Origin: Allopusillimonas ginsengisoli
GTDB taxonomy: Bacteria > Pseudomonadota > Gammaproteobacteria > Burkholderiales > Burkholderiaceae_B
DNA length: 64,000 nt
NCBI RefSeq assembly: GCF_004153455.1
Contig: NZ_SDQE01000005.1
Location: forward strand, 1 to 64,000
Direction: 5' to 3'
The translations under genes and the position numbers were made by a program. Under the pieces are notes generated by a model. The model was not told the DNA's origin, made no database searches, and worked only from the letters and a program-made list of their open reading frames with translations. This document shows, one piece after another, positions 55,350 through 64,000 of this stretch (its first letter is position 1; each line of letters begins with the position of its first letter).

Positions 55350-56870
55350 ATGAACGACTCAACGCCCAATACGCCCGCCACCGACGAAAACCATTTGATT
55401 GCAGAAAGGCGCGGCAAGCTCGCTCGCCTGCGCGCTGAAGGCGTCGCTTATCCTAATGATTTTTGCCCTGATGCACGTGCCGCACACCTGCATCAGGCCT
55501 ACGACAACCTCGACAAAGACGCGCTTGCCGCTCAGGAAACGCAGGTACGCGTCGCAGGGCGCATGATGCTCAAGCGCATTATGGGCAAAGCCAGTTTTGC
55601 GACCTTGCAGGATGGCTCAGGCCGCATTCAGATTTTCCTGGATCGCAACAAACTGGGCGAAGCGTGCTACGCAGATTTCAAAACATGGGACATCGGCGAT
55701 ATCGTTGGCGTGGAAGGCACCATGTTCAAGACCAACAAAGGAGAGCTGTCGGTTCATGCCAGCGCCATCAGACTGCTGTCCAAGTCGCTAAGGCCCCTGC
55801 CCGACAAGTTCCACGGCCTGGCCGATCAGGAAATGCGTTACCGGCAGCGTTACGTCGACCTCATCATGGCCGACGATACTCGCCGTACCTTTCTTGCACG
55901 AAGCAAGGCCATGGCCAGCATCCGGCAATTCATGGTAGAGGCAGACTTCCTTGAAGTCGAAACACCCATGCTGCATCCCATACCCGGAGGCGCGGCCGCC
56001 AAGCCTTTTACGACTCACCACAATGCGCTGGACATGGATATGTACCTCCGCATCGCCCCAGAGCTCTATCTCAAGCGCCTGATCGTGGGCGGCTTTGACC
56101 GCGTGTTCGAGATCAATCGCAATTTCCGCAACGAGGGAGTCAGCCCGCGCCACAACCCCGAATTCACGATGATGGAGTTCTACGCTGCCTATACGAACTA
56201 CCACTGGCTGATGAGCTTCACGGAATCGCTGCTGCGCCAGGCTGCCACAGATGCAACAGGCAGCGCGGTACTTACCTACCAGGGCGAAACAGTCGATCTC
56301 TCCCAACCATTTGATCGCCTGACCATTGTTCAGGCCATACAGAAATATACAGAGGGCTACACAGACACCCAATTGCATGATGCAGTATTTCTGCGCCATG
56401 AACTGCGCCGCCTGGGCGCCGATATCGATGGACCTGTTCTCGGGCGAGCAGGAACCGGCGCCCTGCAGCTCGCGCTGTTCGAAGAAACAGCCGAAGCGAA
56501 GTTGTGGAACCCCACCTTTATCATCGACTATCCTGTCGAGGTCTCGCCACTGGCTCGCGCGTCGGACAAGCAAGCCGATATCACCGAACGCTTCGAACTA
56601 TTCATCACCGGTCGCGAGATCGCCAACGGTTTTTCAGAGCTGAACGACCCCGAGGATCAAGCCGCGCGTTTTCAGGCGCAGGTCCAGGCCAAAGATGCAG
56701 GCGACGAAGAGGCCATGTACTACGACGCAGACTATATTCGTGCGCTGGAGTATGGCATGCCGCCTACGGGCGGCTGCGGCATCGGCATAGATCGACTGGT
56801 CATGTTGCTCACCGACAGCCCCAGCATCCGAGATGTCATTCTATTTCCGCATCTGCGGCGGGAAGACTGA
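55350..56870 (+). CDS. lysS: Lysyl-tRNA synthetase, class II
   Basis: Charges tRNA-Lys. The 506 residues hold the N-terminal OB-fold anticodon-binding domain ([22 protein letters not shown]), then the class II catalytic domain. Motif 1 is near [21 protein letters not shown], motif 2 is [26 protein letters not shown], and motif 3 is [15 protein letters not shown]. The ATG follows the SDR gene by 12 bases. It ends one base from the convergent sialic-acid operon. Confidence 0.97.
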
Positions 56871-56871
56871 T

Positions 56872-59800
56872 TCAAAGCTGGATCTTCCGATCGGCAAGCA
56901 ATAGATTTGCCTGCCATCGGTCCATCGCGTAGGCGGGTGTGCTGTCTGGGTAGCGTATCAGCAAGGTATGCCAGCATCGCGCCGCCTCGCGAAACCGACC
57001 CGACAACTGATAGACTTCAGCCATCAGCTCATACTCGGCGGGGTTTTCCGGGCCTCGCACACCCGGCTTACCGAACACTGACACAGCGCGACGCATATCA
57101 CCCAGCATACGATAGACATACGTTAGCCTGCGCAGCCCATCCTCCAGGCTCATCGCATGCGCTTCAAGCAAATGAACAGCCGACGACCAATCGCGCAGCG
57201 CAAAAGCGCAACGTACCCGCAGATCAATGGCATCAAGATCCTTGTCATCCGCAGCAATCAGCGTATCGCACACCCGGGCACTGGCCGTATAGCAGGAACG
57301 CATTGCCAGCGCATGCGCATACAGGCGGCCCAAACACGCAGGCATGCTCACGATGGGGCTGATCTCAGTGATCTCGCCGGCCCTGGCCCACGCGGCAAAA
57401 GAAGGATAGCCTTCAGTCAGCAATCGGATAAGCTCTTTCCAGTCTTTTTGCGCAAACGCCAACTGCGCTCCTTCTGACCTGACCAGCCAGGCTGTCCTGC
57501 CATGCCGTGGAAGCTTGTTCAACCAAGCGTTGGACTTTTCAAAGTCATGGCACATCCTATAGGCTTTGCTGATGGCCAGTTCTGGCAAAAGCGAGCCCAA
57601 CTCAGCGCGATCAAGCTCTGAGGCACACGCTTGTGCGATAGCAATCACATCGTCCCATTGCTGGTGGGCGCAATAAACCCAAACCAACATGGCATTGCGC
57701 GCAGCGCCTTCCGGCGCCATGTCCGCCATGAGCGCCTGGCAGCGTTCGCCCTTCCCACGTTCAGCCAGCCCATACAACAAGATGCCATACAGTGTTTGAT
57801 CTGACGGTGCCAGCGGGAATCGCTCAAGGAGCAGGTCGCATACCGTGTCATAAGATTGTTGAGCCAGCAAAAACTGAAGTTCAACCTTCTGGAATCGCTT
57901 CATGCTGTCCGGCCGTGCGCGCCCAAGTACCACAGACGCGGAATCGTACAGCACGCGCGCGCTGTCAATGTCCATAGCGCAGAACTTCTCTATCAAGCTG
58001 ACCAGCGTCGCCGCGAGATTCATCGCCACGCCATCAGCCATGTCCTGAACAATGCTTCGCTGCAAAATGCGAGTAGCCATCGCCTGCGCATCGTCAAGCT
58101 TGCCCAACTCAGTCACAATACGCAGATAATCAATACATACACACAACGGGATGCTGTTCTGTGCGCTGGCCAGCCACGCCTCGTGATCGCGATAAGCCCG
58201 CTTGATGTGCTGCAGGGCATCCTGCCATTGCCCACAGGCCATCGCCAACCGGGCACGTTCGACGCAAACCAGGCGCATTCCCGTGCCATCTTCCTCCGCG
58301 GTAGCCAGCCAGGCCTGTCCATCTTGTTGCTGCGGCGCTTGCCGGCATGCCTTCGCCATCAGCAGTGCAGCCGCATGCTCGCGGCGCTCTTTCTCTCCGA
58401 TTGTGGCAACTGCCAGCGTACCCGCGGCAAGCACCTCGTCCCAACGAGCACTCGCCGCAAGCGCCCAAGCTCGAAACAAGGCATACAGTCCTTCGTCGGC
58501 CCGTATGCCATGCGTCCAGCGCCGAAATAACCGCCAGGCGGCATCCGCATCCGACAAGCCCTCATAACAGCGCAACAGCAGGCTTGTGATGGTGGTATCA
58601 GGCACAGGGTGCCAGCAATCGAGTCGAGCAAGCGTTTCCCGTGCTTGCATCCATTGCAGATCATCGATATATACACGTGCAACGGCCAACTGCAAGGGCT
58701 GGCACAAACGCTCATGAAGTGGTGACACGACGGCGCGCGCTGCGTCATGGCAGGCCAGCGCCTGCGCAAAACTCCCTCGCTGGCGCAAGCCCTCGACCGT
58801 CTCGACGGCGGCTGAAACAAATGCCATCGCCCCGGCATTATCACGCAACGCTGCCGATGCCACCGTCGCGCAAACCTCGCTGGCCTCGTCAAAGCGGCTG
58901 AGCTGCAGCAGCACACGCACGTAATCCAGCTTATCGCCTGGGGACATGGCTTGCCATGTCGGGTAAGCCCAAGAGAAATAGCAGAGTGATTTTTCCCATT
59001 GACTCTGCGCCAGCGCAAGCCTTGCCTGCTCGAGCATCCAGGCCTGTTCTTCAGCGAAGCTGGGCCGCAAAACGGACAATGCGTGCTCTGCTCGCGCGAA
59101 ATCACCCTGTACACGCAGTGCTCGAACGTGATCCAAAGAGTCTGAAACTGTATGCTCGGCTTCAATCGACACGCAGGCGTCTGCCGCCTGTTCGCGCGCG
59201 GCGTGCCGAAATCCGCGAGTACTGCCAGCACCATCCTGATCGATATCCAGGACGTCCTGCGCCTGAGTCACTCCGGGAAATTTTTCCAGTATCTGAAGGT
59301 GTTCGGATATCAACGCACGCGCGGACGCATCGGTACTGTTCGCCTCGTCTCTGGGAAGCACATTCAGGAACCAGGGGCCAATCGCATAGGCCCTGGTTTC
59401 CGGGCTGACCAACTGCGTATAGACCAGGGCTGTAGAGGCGATACCCAGGATTGCCTTGGGCCGCGCCAGGCAGATCAACGGTTCGACTGGAAAATCCGTT
59501 TCCTGGAAAATAACGAATGGTTGGCTGCCATTTGTCACGCCGTCAATACGTCGCCTGAACGCCTGATACAGGGTTCGCCGATCTTTGTGATGCATTTTTA
59601 TGAACACACGTGCGTTAAGACGGCTGCTTGCCAGTGCCAGCATGTTGACAAGCACATCGCAAAATGTCTCATCATTCACAGGATATCGTTGGCTCACGAA
59701 CAGAATGTCGTTGCCGCCGATATCGTAATGATTTACCAATTGCCGTGTCCGATCGTCGATGGTCAAGCCGCCCGCATGAAGAAAAAATCGGGTCGCAATC

Positions 59801-60486
59801 CGATAGTTGAATACGCCATTGAGCAGCTCGGGAAAAGCAGCATAAACTCGATCGAAATCTCTAAAATAGCTCAGGGCCGGCAATAAGCTTCGGTAGCCAG
59901 GTACACAGCGCATGACCCCGCGTCGCCATGCTGCCCATACCGGGGCCGTATCATCGACAGCCGATAGGTTATGTCCGCGCGCATCAAGCTTGTAGGTCGC
60001 GGTCCCCTCCTCCACCAGACACATAGTGCAACCACGCTGCTTTGCAAGCGTTGCCAGTACAGCATAGTGCCGCTCGAAACTGAGCAGAAACACAGATCGA
60101 GGAGCTACCGTTCGAAGCAGGGTCTTGTAGATCCGTTTCATCACCGAAAGCTTCTTCAAGGCGATCCGATTGGGGGTTCTCGGAATCCTGACACGTGACA
60201 CAGCACTGAACAGTTCTTTGTTCACTTGCTGTTCTATCAAGACGGGCATGTTCAAGTTTGCAGACGTATACAGAACAGCCAAATAGTTGCCCGCCAGCTT
60301 CTCGAAACGGATCAAGGCCTGAACCTGGCGCAATTGACCCACATGCGATACGACGAACAAGTTGTCGGCCGGGGTGTCTGCCGTACCGCGCAGGCCGCCA
60401 TGCTTATTCCAGGCAGTGGCGGCTCGCCTGGTCAGTGTGCCAAACTGGACAGCAGCGCGTTGTGCCCACCGTACAAACCTATCCAT
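56872..60486 (-). CDS. NeuS-like polysialyltransferase fused to a TPR-like solenoid
   Basis: A 1204-residue protein, about three times the size of E. coli NeuS (about 409). Residues 40-410 follow NeuS closely from memory: VVSHVGQLRQ near 45, SFERHYAVL near 136, LVEEGTATYK with the catalytic EEG at 159-161, SQRYPVND near 265, and ASTALVYTQLVSP near 350. NeuS adds alpha-2,8-linked sialic acid at the inner face of the membrane. The second conserved motif, HP in known enzymes, reads HH (299-300). Residues ~440-1190 are Ala- and Leu-rich paired helices resembling TPR repeats, with no catalytic motif I recognise. It is last in the neu operon and overlaps the gene before it by 8 bases. Confidence 0.8.
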   Translation of the reverse strand: MDRFVRWAQRAAVQFGTLTRRAATAWNKHGGLRGTADTPADNLFVVSHVGQLRQVQALIRFEKLAGNYLAVLYTSANLNMPVLIEQQVNKELFSAVSRVRIPRTPNRIALKKLSVMKRIYKTLLRTVAPRSVFLLSFERHYAVLATLAKQRGCTMCLVEEGTATYKLDARGHNLSAVDDTAPVWAAWRRGVMRCVPGYRSLLPALSYFRDFDRVYAAFPELLNGVFNYRIATRFFLHAGGLTIDDRTRQLVNHYDIGGNDILFVSQRYPVNDETFCDVLVNMLALASSRLNARVFIKMHHKDRRTLYQAFRRRIDGVTNGSQPFVIFQETDFPVEPLICLARPKAILGIASTALVYTQLVSPETRAYAIGPWFLNVLPRDEANSTDASARALISEHLQILEKFPGVTQAQDVLDIDQDGAGSTRGFRHAAREQAADACVSIEAEHTVSDSLDHVRALRVQGDFARAEHALSVLRPSFAEEQAWMLEQARLALAQSQWEKSLCYFSWAYPTWQAMSPGDKLDYVRVLLQLSRFDEASEVCATVASAALRDNAGAMAFVSAAVETVEGLRQRGSFAQALACHDAARAVVSPLHERLCQPLQLAVARVYIDDLQWMQARETLARLDCWHPVPDTTITSLLLRCYEGLSDADAAWRLFRRWTHGIRADEGLYALFRAWALAASARWDEVLAAGTLAVATIGEKERREHAAALLMAKACRQAPQQQDGQAWLATAEEDGTGMRLVCVERARLAMACGQWQDALQHIKRAYRDHEAWLASAQNSIPLCVCIDYLRIVTELGKLDDAQAMATRILQRSIVQDMADGVAMNLAATLVSLIEKFCAMDIDSARVLYDSASVVLGRARPDSMKRFQKVELQFLLAQQSYDTVCDLLLERFPLAPSDQTLYGILLYGLAERGKGERCQALMADMAPEGAARNAMLVWVYCAHQQWDDVIAIAQACASELDRAELGSLLPELAISKAYRMCHDFEKSNAWLNKLPRHGRTAWLVRSEGAQLAFAQKDWKELIRLLTEGYPSFAAWARAGEITEISPIVSMPACLGRLYAHALAMRSCYTASARVCDTLIAADDKDLDAIDLRVRCAFALRDWSSAVHLLEAHAMSLEDGLRRLTYVYRMLGDMRRAVSVFGKPGVRGPENPAEYELMAEVYQLSGRFREAARCWHTLLIRYPDSTPAYAMDRWQANLLLADRKIQL

Positions 60487-61600
60487 GATTCATTCCTGTA
60501 ATGGCGAAGGACCTGCCCACAACGCGCAAGCTTTTCAATGGATGTCTCAGAAAAACAGCAGGAAAAGCGAGGGCCAGTTTTGTTATGGAACAGCGAGCGG
60601 GTAGCACCCTGAGTTCGTTTTTTGGCTGCATCAAACGATGCTTCACGGTTTCCAGGCCGAACGCGGGATGTTGAACGTTCTCACGCAGCCAACGGCTGCA
60701 GGCTGCGGGCGGCCGCATGAAATCCACCTGCTCCGCTTGGACGATCAACCCACTATCCTGAAAATACTGATCATGACTACCCTCACTGGCATAGCCGCTC
60801 AACAAGTAAACGTTTTTTCTCAGAAGCAGGGCCTCGATGGCCGCGGAGCTCGATATACTCAAGCAAGAATCCACGATCTCCAACACACTGTTGACAGGCG
60901 CTTCAGTGAACGACATATTCACAGGCTTGCCGATATCGGCAATGATGCGGCAGAGCGCCTCGGGCACCTGCCTTGACCCTGGTTCGGCGGACCGCCCCTT
61001 GATCAAAAACATGCGATGCGGATTGCGCTCTGCGATGAGAATCAGATCTTGTGCCAGCCGCTGCCGTTCCTTCCTTCGGCATGGCACATACAACTGTTCG
61101 AAGAAGGCTGTCGATGGTAGAATGCCCACCACATCCTTTGCAGAACTGTTGTCAACCTGTCCTCCTGCGTGCGCTTCCAGCCAGGCCGCTCCGTACACAA
61201 TCCCATTGTTCTGCAAGCCCAGCGCATGACAAACACGCCGGTATATGCCTGCATCCATTTCTGAATTGAGAAGCACGATATCGCATCCGGCGCGGGTAAT
61301 GAACGCATCGAGCTGGCTGTCCATAACGATGCCGGGAAACAAAGCGACGGCTTTGATGCGGTCAGCCTTTCGACGCACCCGATCCAGCAGAGCATTCAAG
61401 TCTCGTCCGCCACAGCTGAAAACAATGACATCATGGACGGCAAGTGCGCGGCAGAGTGCATCAGCATCTTTCCAAGCTTGTAGATCAAAGCGCTTTGTCT
61501 TGCCAAAACGCTTGTCGTCATTCAGCGCCTGGCACAGAAACCGGGTCGCCTTTTCCTGCGCATACGTTCGAAAGACAACCGCAACCTGACACTGGTTCAT
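60479..61600 (-). CDS. Unassigned GT-B-like protein of the sialic-acid operon
   Basis: A 373-residue protein, not certainly placed in a family. No signal peptide; a short hydrophobic stretch near the C-terminus (ITKLALAFPAVFLRHPL) could bind membrane. The N-terminal half resembles a nucleotide-sugar-type Rossmann domain, and SSSAAIEALLLRKNVYLLSG near residue 255 is the kind of Ser/Gly-rich loop seen in GT-B sialyltransferases and in NeuC. It sits directly before the NeuS-like gene, where E. coli K1 carries neuE. It may start the sialic-acid chain on its lipid carrier, but this is inference. It overlaps neuB by 4 bases. Confidence 0.6.
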   Translation of the reverse strand: MNQCQVAVVFRTYAQEKATRFLCQALNDDKRFGKTKRFDLQAWKDADALCRALAVHDVIVFSCGGRDLNALLDRVRRKADRIKAVALFPGIVMDSQLDAFITRAGCDIVLLNSEMDAGIYRRVCHALGLQNNGIVYGAAWLEAHAGGQVDNSSAKDVVGILPSTAFFEQLYVPCRRKERQRLAQDLILIAERNPHRMFLIKGRSAEPGSRQVPEALCRIIADIGKPVNMSFTEAPVNSVLEIVDSCLSISSSAAIEALLLRKNVYLLSGYASEGSHDQYFQDSGLIVQAEQVDFMRPPAACSRWLRENVQHPAFGLETVKHRLMQPKNELRVLPARCSITKLALAFPAVFLRHPLKSLRVVGRSFAITGMNHG

Positions 61601-62640
61601 GCCTGGACGTCCCCGTTCCGCAATTGAGCTCCCTTCTTGATGTCGCGGGCCGCATAGCGTCCCAGTAATCTATCGTAGTCCTCTGCGCTGAACGCTCCGG
61701 TGCCGGGCCGTTTGACCCATAGATTTTCCTCCGTGAGTAGTTCTCCGGCACGTATGTCTCTGTCTGCCACGACAGAGGCAAAGGCGAATTTGATGGTGGC
61801 CGCCTCTTCGGGCAGCGGCTGCTTCTCCCCGCCTCTGGCCAGGAATATCGCTTGCGACCCGCGAATCAACTGGGCCAACGCGGCAGGGTCCATCGAGCAA
61901 GCGATATCTGGACCTGGGCGGCACATATCGTCGGTAAAGTGGCGCTCCACAATGCTGGCCCCCAACGCAACAGCGGCGAGACAGGCATAATTGTCCACAG
62001 TATGATCGGACAAACCCACAACAGCGTCAGGAAAAGCTTCCGCCAGACGCTGAAGGGCGCCAAGCCGAACCAGATGATAGGGTGTAGGATAGACATTCGT
62101 GCAATGCAGCAGCGCAAAGGGCACATTGGCGGCGCGAAGTATCTGCACCGACTTTCCCACGCTGGCCAGATCGTTCATCCCTGTCGACAGGATAATCGGC
62201 TTGCCGAACGAGGCAACCAGCCGCAGCAAGGGATAATTACTGCACTCCCCTGAACCAATCTTGTACGCCGGGACGCCCATGCGCTGTAGCCTGTAGGCGG
62301 CCGCGCGCGAAAAAGGCGTGCTGATGAAAATCAGCCCTTTCGCTTGCGCATATTTCATCAACGCGGTTTCGTCCGCTTCGCTCAATGCGCAGCGCGCCAT
62401 GATGTCAAAAATAGAAACTTCGGCATTGCCGGGCACAACGTCGCGTGCCTCCACCGACATTTCATCTTCGACAATATGCGTTTGGTGCTTGATCACCTCT
62501 GCGCCCGCCCGCTGCGCGGCGTCAACCATGGCAATGGCCGCGTCGAGACTGCCCTCATGATTGATACCAATTTCGGCGATCACCAAGGGTTCATGCGCCG
62601 GCCCCACTGGCCTGCCCTGAATGCTGAAGGATGGAAGCAT
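61597..62640 (-). CDS. neuB: N-acetylneuraminate synthase
   Basis: Condenses N-acetylmannosamine with phosphoenolpyruvate to give sialic acid (Neu5Ac). The 347 residues contain the barrel domain with VIAEIGINHEGSLDAA near the start, GSGECSNYPLL and KPIILSTGM in the middle, and VVGLSDHTVDN, all typical of NeuB. A C-terminal SAF (antifreeze-like) domain begins around RDIRAGELLTEENLWVKRPG. The KIGSGEC region matches E. coli NeuB more than legionaminate synthase as far as I can recall. It begins 3 bases after neuA. Confidence 0.93.
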   Translation of the reverse strand: MLPSFSIQGRPVGPAHEPLVIAEIGINHEGSLDAAIAMVDAAQRAGAEVIKHQTHIVEDEMSVEARDVVPGNAEVSIFDIMARCALSEADETALMKYAQAKGLIFISTPFSRAAAYRLQRMGVPAYKIGSGECSNYPLLRLVASFGKPIILSTGMNDLASVGKSVQILRAANVPFALLHCTNVYPTPYHLVRLGALQRLAEAFPDAVVGLSDHTVDNYACLAAVALGASIVERHFTDDMCRPGPDIACSMDPAALAQLIRGSQAIFLARGGEKQPLPEEAATIKFAFASVVADRDIRAGELLTEENLWVKRPGTGAFSAEDYDRLLGRYAARDIKKGAQLRNGDVQA

Positions 62641-62643
62641 GTG

Positions 62644-63318
62644 TTACCTCCCCGCCAGCATATGCGCGATGAACAAGTCTTGCTCTGTATCGATATCGAG
62701 AGATCTGGAGACAGGCATTTCAAAAAATTCCAGTTTAGGTACAAAAAATGTACGAGCCGACAATAACGCCGACATCTTGTTGATATACAGCGCGCCATTC
62801 ACTCTGTACGCAGCAGGCAGGTGTTGACGCGGCACCTCCATCGCTGACAAGTCATCCAAGGGCACCAGACCTTTGTCGTGCGAGTGTCGGATAAAGGTTT
62901 TGTAGGGATGGTGCTCGCAGGGGCATACGGAAACCACGGAGTTCGCATCAGCGCGACGGCGCAGCTCAATGGCATCGGCCACATCCCTGGCAGTGCGTAG
63001 CGGGCTGGTTGGCTGCAGCAGCACACACTCGCCATCTTGTATGCCTACGGTCTCCAACGCATGACACACCACATCAATGGATTTGGCTGTGTCGCTTGCC
63101 AGCAGTCCAGGTCGCCACACTACACGGGCGCCCTGCCGTATGGCCTCGCAGGCAATTTCATGTCCATCGGTGGACACCACCACCTCATCCACCACGCCCG
63201 ACTCGAACGCCGCCCGGATCGCGTGTTGCAGCAACGTATACGGCCCGACTTTGCGTAGATTTTTACGCTTTAGTCCCTTCGAGCCCGCCCTGGCGGTAAT
63301 GACGGCAAGCACTGTCAT
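62644..63318 (-). CDS. neuA: CMP-sialic acid synthetase (acylneuraminate cytidylyltransferase)
   Basis: Activates sialic acid with CTP. The 224 residues open with AVITARAGSKGLKRKNLRKVG, the CTP-binding P-loop. They also carry LLQPTSPLRTARDV and the C-terminal SLDIDTEQDLFIA metal-binding segment. The ATG at 63318 overlaps the neuC stop by 4 bases; the open frame to 63498 would run into neuC. The E. coli K1 enzyme has an extra esterase domain, which is absent here. Confidence 0.93.
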   Translation of the reverse strand: MTVLAVITARAGSKGLKRKNLRKVGPYTLLQHAIRAAFESGVVDEVVVSTDGHEIACEAIRQGARVVWRPGLLASDTAKSIDVVCHALETVGIQDGECVLLQPTSPLRTARDVADAIELRRRADANSVVSVCPCEHHPYKTFIRHSHDKGLVPLDDLSAMEVPRQHLPAAYRVNGALYINKMSALLSARTFFVPKLEFFEMPVSRSLDIDTEQDLFIAHMLAGR

Positions 63319-64000
63319 GCTGAGTCCTGTAGCATCGTCTGGTGCATGAGATTCGCATGGTAGGCCGGTGCGGCCAGCGGTTTGGCGAAATCCACAAAGG
63401 ACTTCTGAACAGGCGTGCGCCAGAACGAATCCGTAGTGATCGCTTGCTTGAATTTTCTCACGCTGTCCCCGTCCCCAAACCAGGCCGAAGGCGCGCAACG
63501 CTTGAGGTGCTTGACCTTGTCTATGCCCTCCAGAATCGCTTCAATGCGATAGTCTGTGCTGACAATGGCGCCAATGCGCGATCGCCTATGTTGCCGGGTG
63601 CCGACATTCACAGCGGGCACACCATAGAAAGGCGCCTCTCTGACGCCGGCGCTGGAGTTGCCCACGATGTAAAGCGCATGCTTTAGAAACGTAAGAAAGT
63701 ATTCAAATCTGATTGATGGGAAAATTCGGAAACGGTCGCAGTTTCGGTACCCGTGCAACGTATCGAGTATTTCCTGGCTGCCAAGATCATTGTTGGGATA
63801 AATCACAATGTACCGATCCCCGGATCTGGATAAGGCCTCGAAGAACCAGCGCGCATAGTCTTGTATGTGTGAACGCTCGGTAGTTACCGGATGAAAAATA
63901 GCCAAGGCATAGGCGTCGAATCCTACGTTGTAGCGCGCCTTTGCATCACACAGGGAAGGCAGATCGGCCGCGCTCATGGCATCCAGGTCCGGCGAACCGA
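63315..64000 (-). CDS. neuC: UDP-N-acetylglucosamine 2-epimerase (hydrolysing), partial
   Basis: Makes N-acetylmannosamine from UDP-GlcNAc, the first step to sialic acid. Only the C-terminal ~228 residues lie in the window. The open frame continues past the end, reading GSPDLDAM as its first residues, which is an internal NeuC segment, so position 63977 is not the start. ALAIFHPVTTERSH and GNSSAGVREAPFYGVPAVNVGTRQ are epimerase signatures that bind the UDP-sugar. The gene is probably followed upstream, beyond 64000, by the rest of the locus. Confidence 0.9.
   Translation of the reverse strand, partial: GSPDLDAMSAADLPSLCDAKARYNVGFDAYALAIFHPVTTERSHIQDYARWFFEALSRSGDRYIVIYPNNDLGSQEILDTLHGYRNCDRFRIFPSIRFEYFLTFLKHALYIVGNSSAGVREAPFYGVPAVNVGTRQHRRSRIGAIVSTDYRIEAILEGIDKVKHLKRCAPSAWFGDGDSVRKFKQAITTDSFWRTPVQKSFVDFAKPLAAPAYHANLMHQTMLQDSA

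Follow-up and report, generated by a model that had tools for sequence, protein, structure and literature searches.

A 64,000-nucleotide stretch of Allopusillimonas ginsengisoli DNA (contig NZ_SDQE01000005.1, positions 1 to 64,000; the window below) was found to carry, as the last gene of a K1-like group 2 capsule operon, a gene for a polysialyltransferase of glycosyltransferase family 38 (GT38) that continues into a long C-terminal tail resembling a tetratricopeptide repeat (TPR) solenoid. Membership of PF07388, the predicted fold, the operon, the conservation of the fusion and the homology of its tails are established. With a probability of roughly 50%, the protein is read as the polysialyltransferase that elongates the chains of a group 2, ABC-transporter-dependent capsule of polysialic acid; in this reading it is probably held at the membrane, and its TPR-like solenoid would, by analogy with other capsule systems, serve as a built-in docking arm to NeuE/KpsC.

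The frame comprises 1204 codons from an ATG (1205 codons as counted in the family genome search), and the plus strand of the same interval is interrupted by stops. The original prediction, made from the sequence by itself, had this interval and the uninterrupted frame right and named no strand; it was here set to minus. The polymerase frame converges with a neighbour on the plus strand that ends at 56870 and that we take to encode lysyl-tRNA synthetase. Expected at residues 40-410, the PF07388 match was found at residues 42-366 (E 6.6e-58, 197.2 bits against a curated cut-off of 23.3, profile positions 1-312 of 316), and in a phmmer search against the PDB Mannheimia haemolytica SiaD matched residues 41-407 (E 5.8e-60). 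An AlphaFold2 model covering residues 5-1204 was built on a 9-row alignment (model numbering + 4 gives protein numbering). The head of the model is a largely confident GT-B fold, to which PDB 5wc6, the M. haemolytica polysialyltransferase (MhPST), was aligned with Z 25.5 over 371 residues at a root-mean-square deviation of 2.6.

Mutants of MhPST point to Q41, Q44, E152, E153, R259, H291 and K293, and its nucleotide contacts are E323, S339 and T340 (PMC5517516). The counterparts of these residues were assigned by motif as Q51, Q54, E159, E160, R267, H299, K301, E335, S351 and T352. The D/E-D/E-G motif is present as E159-E160-G161, and the HP motif reads HH (H299-H300), its His being kept and its Pro replaced by His; the other aligned active-site residues are intact. 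Of the aligned rows, the window protein alone lacks the proline. The N-terminus has a maximal hydrophobic moment of 0.66 and a net charge of +5 in the first 30 residues, similar to K1 NeuS (0.51, +4) and to the Bordetella ansorpii homologue described below (0.71, +7), with weaker values in the second homologue, that of CGII-56 (0.43, −2). It was modelled as a helix at low predicted local distance difference test (pLDDT) scores and, by analogy with MhPST (PMC5517516), is a possible membrane anchor as in other polysialyltransferases.

Beyond the head, the AlphaFold2 model contained 42 helices of at least 4 residues and zero strands between model residues 420 and 1194. The mean pLDDT of the model was 63.2; the tail was fairly confident at model residues ~441-580 and ~1081-1180, and its junction with the head and much of its middle were poor, with ten-residue means not above 55 around 600-720 and 850-1080. 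As originally described, the tail is rich in Ala and Leu (16.1% and 12.4% over residues 441-1204). Periodicity was assessed by BLOSUM autocorrelation over 41 lags with 1000 shuffles. In the window tail (residues 431-1204) the top value was at lag 34 (z 4.06), equalled at any lag by 3 of 1000 shuffles. The B. ansorpii tail also peaked at lag 34 (z 3.23, 4.0% of shuffles), and in the CGII-56 tail lag 34 (z 2.82) came just behind lag 44 (2.83); at 9.8% of shuffles, the result for this tail is not significant taken singly. The heads of the three fused proteins, used as controls, gave 0.50, −0.21 and −0.81 at lag 34; the window head had an unrelated peak at lag 20 (z 3.61, 1.4%).

The TPR matches anticipated for the tail were present, but in the window protein all TPR models of Pfam stayed below cut-off (best TPR_2, 24.6 against 27), and none was passed by the CGII-56 protein; the B. 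ansorpii homologue passed TPR_19 (27.3 against 25) and ANAPC3 (29.7 against 27.2). A profile of the three tails matched the designed TPR protein 7obi at 3.9e-5, and SPINDLY and O-GlcNAc transferase (OGT) weakly. Structural matches of the tail were to TPR and other helical-repeat proteins at Z ~10-12 with large root-mean-square deviations, such Z values being common for helical repeats. Scanning with a TPR consensus pattern did no better than chance (4 matches in the tail, 3.8 expected from shuffles). Given the 34-residue period, the all-helical model and the TPR profile and structure matches, 'TPR-like solenoid' is a fair label for the tail as predicted, its middle being unproven.

The search for the same fusion in other genomes was productive: it was found, with homologous tails, in Alcaligenaceae bacterium CGII-56 and B. 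ansorpii. The call of a polysialyltransferase followed by a repeat tail was right, and the layout is conserved in three species. PF07388 was searched against 268 family genomes at E 1e-3 and matched five, four of them above cut-off. All three profile-spanning matches (201-296 bits) lay in long frames, of 1205 codons in the window genome, 1043 in a congener of the window organism (G001, the contig being that of CGII-56) and 1007 in B. ansorpii; the other two were both partial, one of 26.3 bits in a 321-codon frame and one below cut-off in a 1050-codon frame of another kind. The latter frame, from a relative of B. ansorpii, was rejected as a further case of the fusion, its only PF07388 match being sub-cut-off and near the end of the 658 amino acids examined. 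Samples of the class and of the phylum gave matches in 14 of 369 and 9 of 398 genomes, both counting the window genome, and no other frame exceeded 654 codons. The 654-codon frame of the class sample was set aside (sub-cut-off match, no tail seen by eye in the frame listing), as was a second, distant PF07388 protein of Psychrobacter (L051:1333-3282; 649 aa, 68 bits), in which ~270 extra residues, judged by eye, precede the family region and do not follow it.

Genome contigs scanned with the full-length protein as query gave no matches. A second scan, not exhaustive, used a three-row head alignment, two peptide patterns and the species collection, and the patterns led to 8 loci, with three frames of 1043, 1007 and 713 codons and five of 341-446, the 341-codon Mannheimia frame being only part of its gene. 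By blastp, the tails of the three Alcaligenaceae matched one another at 1.1e-19 (window and CGII-56), 5.2e-11 (window and B. ansorpii) and 2.6e-6 (third pair), which argues for a function of the tail; conservation was highest near residues 496-550 and 1151-1200, and the mid-tail was barely conserved. Because one open frame recurs in three species, the possibility of two genes split by a frameshift, or of a sequencing artefact, was rejected.

In a set of 118 made up of Helicobacter rodentium and its relatives, PF07388 matched seven, two of them strongly (214 and 266 bits, frames of 713 and 752 codons), and a weak profile-spanning match (47 bits) lay in a 349-codon frame. The H. rodentium tail gave no blastp match to the three Alcaligenaceae tails at E 0.1, and lag-34 z values for it and for its relative G966 were −1.17 and −0.94. 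In a tree of the heads, the window protein grouped with that of B. ansorpii (86/83), the placement of CGII-56 was unsettled and the H. rodentium pair was firm (100/100); the tree carries a long-branch warning and does not settle a single clade for the three fused enzymes. The VIA-align comparison of the H. rodentium model in effect tested the head only, so the fold of its tail rests on a low-confidence model.

Coordinates of the polymerase gene, its parts and its neighbours in the window are collected in table 1. The neighbouring genes and those past the window end place KpsM/T, KpsE, KpsC, KpsS, NeuA/B/C, NeuE and the polymerase together, as in a K1-type group 2 locus. Past the window end follow kpsC, kpsT, kpsM, a gene for an outer membrane polysaccharide export (OPX) protein and kpsE, with kpsS ~12 kb beyond kpsE. 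Identities to the E. coli K1 proteins were 28% for NeuS, 27% for NeuE, 30% for NeuC, 31% for NeuA and 34% for NeuB, and 43% for KpsC, 52% for KpsT, 33% for KpsM, 30% for KpsE and 37% for KpsS. The OPX protein has Poly_export/SLBB domains and gave no blastp match to K1 KpsD at 1e-5; KpsF, KpsU and NeuD were not noticed by eye in the open reading frame lists of the locus, no genome search having been aimed at them. The neuE and polymerase genes overlap by 8 bp in B. ansorpii, as in the window, and by 11 bp in K1, and the B. ansorpii order is kpsC, kpsS, neuC, neuA, neuB, neuE, fused polymerase. Since neuC, neuA, neuB and neuE lie beside the polymerase together with a K1-like kps set, polysialic acid is the likely product, and the enzyme, judged from its gene context, probably builds a sialic-acid capsule.

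Table 1. Features of the polysialyltransferase gene and its surroundings in the window.
Feature	Position	Strand	Basis or remark
GT38 polysialyltransferase (1204 aa) ending in a TPR-like tail	56872..60486	-	frame, PF07388, PDB sequence match, predicted fold
PF07388 catalytic domain, GT-B fold, residues 42-366	59389..60363	-	Pfam, alignment, motif, predicted fold
Basic amphipathic N-terminal helix, ~residues 6-29, possible membrane anchor	60400..60471	-	hydrophobic moment, charge, low-pLDDT helix
TPR-like solenoid tail, residues 424-1204, predicted all-helical (42 helices)	56875..59217	-	Pfam, profile, autocorrelation, model
Aromatic-rich repeat, residues 496-509 (QWEKSLCYFSWAYP), among the better conserved tail parts of the three fused proteins	58960..59001	-	alignment
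Conserved C-terminal solenoid end, residues 1151-1200	56887..57036	-	48% / 34% identity to CGII-56 / B. ansorpii; TPR_2 match 1151-1181
neuE homologue (PF20471, DUF6716)	60479..61600	-	Pfam; overlaps polymerase start by 8 bp
neuB, N-acetylneuraminate synthase family	61597..62640	-	TIGR03569 392.3 bits, just under 399.65 cut-off
neuA, CMP-sialate synthetase	62644..63318	-	open frame to 63498; B. ansorpii NeuA homology from frame residue 61
neuC, UDP-GlcNAc 2-epimerase, cut by window end	63315..64000	-	frame continues to contig position 64580

Several observations were made on these loci in passing. Between kpsE and kpsS lie genes for a polyketide synthase (type I, by eye), a BioF/serine-palmitoyltransferase-like enzyme, a sulfatase-fold protein and a short-chain dehydrogenase/reductase (L005:16715-19000, L006:1-6855, L006:6856-9241; contig C29 ~70714-82241), possibly for a special lipid of the capsule anchor; in B. 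ansorpii, too, the locus has a polyketide synthase-like frame and a BioF-like gene at its flank (L038:12373-17134). In CGII-56 (L007:2-2787) transposase-like frames, presumably IS66-like, stand in place of the first part of the neuE homologue, so the capsule may be off even with the fused polymerase frame open. The kpsC gene of B. ansorpii (L038:300-2407) is in two overlapping frames (283 + 424 aa), so that either the gene is broken or the sequence has an error. The gene immediately following the fused polymerase in this species encodes a 428 aa protein (L038:11054-12340) with weak alpha/beta-hydrolase and then weak TPR matches; a single protein search, run without a positive control, gave no relative of it in the window genome at E 1e-3. 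In H. rodentium, a 538 aa protein encoded just before the polymerase (L040:6173-7789) is hydrolase-like by eye in its N-terminal part and has no Pfam hydrolase match, and the neuA frame (L040:12290-13822) runs by eye into repeat-like and glycosyltransferase-like regions, a multi-domain protein in a sialic acid locus. A 'Capsule C' of B. ansorpii was described in 2016 in one of two strains, in a paper whose main text does not contain the word 'sialic' (PMC5045587); the gene set at L038:300-10949 may point to polysialic acid as this capsule, if both clusters are one.

The roles originally suggested for the tail were docking, control of chain length and recruitment of an acceptor. Taken by analogy, the published precedents favour docking with acceptor handover, or oligomerization, as the role of the tail. 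In the K1 'sialisome', NeuS interacts with KpsC by two-hybrid; the membrane protein NeuE has an accessory part, and excess NeuS suppresses the effect of losing it (PMC2408645). TPR truncations of A. pleuropneumoniae Cps3D and Cps7D were active on capsule fragments and gave no marked elongation of the transition-transferase product (PMC11666461), and the C-terminal TPR region of TviD recruits TviE (PMC9597891). By analogy with these systems, the tail is probably a docking scaffold, with NeuE and/or KpsC as the most likely partners. The N-terminal helix would then probably hold the polymerase at the inner membrane, and the tail would bind these assembly partners, bring the polymerase 3-deoxy-d-manno-octulosonic acid (Kdo)-lipid that already carries the first sialic acid and maintain the coupling of synthesis to export by KpsMT. 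Elongation of free oligosialic acid would be expected of the catalytic head by itself, whereas the native primer, being lipid-linked, would be used efficiently only with the tail.

Several points weigh against the docking-arm reading. Contact between NeuE and NeuS of K1 was not detected by two-hybrid (PMC2408645). The tail is not required in general, as K1 NeuS (409 aa) and the enzymes of Actinobacillus, P. testudinis, Psychrobacter and Microbulbifer (frames of 404-446 codons) have no such tail, and in the fused proteins its middle is poorly conserved and poorly predicted. The activity of the window enzyme could be low because its HP proline is His; in the NmB enzyme, P279A lowered Vmax ~4-fold, raised the Km for CMP-N-acetylneuraminic acid (CMP-Neu5Ac) ~5-fold and brought the capsule signal to 60% (PMC2169525). 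The identity of the sugar, as read from the genes, is not certain, the best NCBIfam model for NeuA being PseF, far below cut-off (117.8 against 205.7), and NeuB falling just under the cut-off of NnaB.

The strongest alternative, which we regard as rather unlikely, is that the tail oligomerizes the polymerase and is otherwise dispensable for catalysis. Cps1B without its C-terminal TPR domain was unchanged in activity and in the nuclear magnetic resonance of its product and went from a dimer-to-trimer state to a monomer (PMC5974469), and the tail-less MhPST was monomeric in solution by size exclusion (PMC5517516); however, the TPR domain of Cps3D and Cps7D also matters for the acceptor (PMC11666461), and ~780 residues would seem far beyond the need of a dimer interface. 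It is improbable that chain length is set by the solenoid through binding of the nascent polysialic acid, in the manner of a ruler or a processivity clamp. Such a role could draw on interactions of TPRs with polymer reported in synthase-dependent systems (PMC11666461) and on the basic TPR groove proposed as the product channel of VexE (PMC9597891). Against it, all three tails are net acidic (K+R to D+E 85/98 in the window protein, 46/77 in CGII-56 and 59/79 in B. ansorpii) and the window head is basic (53 to 35), which is unfavourable for a polyanion and makes direct polymer binding less likely, a weak argument since it concerns overall charge only; the tails also differ in length (774, 620 and 593 residues in the same order, as cut for autocorrelation).

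That the tail, by analogy with the TPR-bearing OGT, recruits a modifying enzyme or protein acceptor that is not part of the capsule complex is distinctly improbable: the TPR chains of OGT and SPINDLY were among the weak tail matches and the hydrolase-like protein is encoded by the next gene in B. ansorpii, but the polymerase gene ends a lipid-linked capsule operon, that protein was without a relative in the window genome in the search given above, and the TPR matches are generic. A decaying or accidental fusion, with a low-activity HH enzyme and a functionless tail, or a sequencing artefact, would fit the loss of the HP proline in the window protein only and the barely conserved mid-tail, but is very improbable, as the fusion stays in one frame in three species, homology between their tails can be detected, the ends of the tails are conserved and the remaining aligned active-site residues are intact.

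An extension of the docking-arm reading, put forward tentatively, is that polysialyltransferases gained solenoid tails at least twice and that the tail is a covalent 'sialisome' scaffold organizing priming (NeuE), anchor synthesis (KpsC/KpsS) and export. 'At least twice' is suggested by the undetectable homology between the Alcaligenaceae and H. rodentium tails, which does not prove separate origins. If the covalent scaffold holds, deletion of the tail would uncouple polymer synthesis from export or alter chain length. Handover of the lipid primer to the polymerase, coupling to export and the limit of chain length are open matters in group 2 capsules; according to a 2025 review, whether K1 chain length is unregulated or set by a yet unidentified factor needs study (PMC12220298). 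A polysialyltransferase whose docking arm can be separated, and some of whose relatives naturally have no tail, would make the question directly testable and could aid the enzymatic synthesis of lipid-linked polysialic acid.

The original prediction knew of no described polymerase with this layout. Put so generally, this goes too far: TagF-like capsule polymerases (PMC5974469, PMC11666461) and Vi proteins (PMC9597891) already bear TPR domains, so the layout has precedents. For GT38, neither a TPR-bearing polysialyltransferase nor a repeat tail of this unusual length on one was found described in the accessible parts of the open-access literature searched. Like the TagF-like Cps1B, Cps3D and Cps7D, the window enzyme is a polymerase of an ABC-transporter capsule with a TPR domain at one end (C-terminal in Cps1B); its catalytic domain and polymer are others, and its tail is about twice their ~400 aa. 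It may work like these polymerases, yet is not classed as one because a TagF-like polyol/hexose-phosphate transferase domain was absent among its Pfam matches up to E 1. TviD and VexE of the Vi antigen, likewise enzymes in the pathway of an ABC-transporter capsule, also contain TPR modules and, unlike the window enzyme, are described as an O-acetyltransferase and an acyltransferase with other catalytic domains (PMC9597891). The H. rodentium protein (712 aa, its gene lying among neu genes) and G966 (752-codon frame) share the PF07388 head with a C-terminal extension, which in H. rodentium is predicted helical at low confidence and has no Pfam TPR match; unlike the window tail, these extensions have ~300-340 residues, no 34-residue period and no detectable homology to it. 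With the GT38 polysialyltransferases of E. coli K1 (NeuS), M. haemolytica (SiaD/PST) and N. meningitidis (SiaD), the window enzyme shares PF07388, the GT-B fold, the catalytic Glu and His, the N-terminal amphipathic segment and, as in K1, a place next to neuE in a neu/kps locus; it differs from them in its ~780-residue TPR-like tail, in HH for HP and in its identity of 28% to K1 NeuS.

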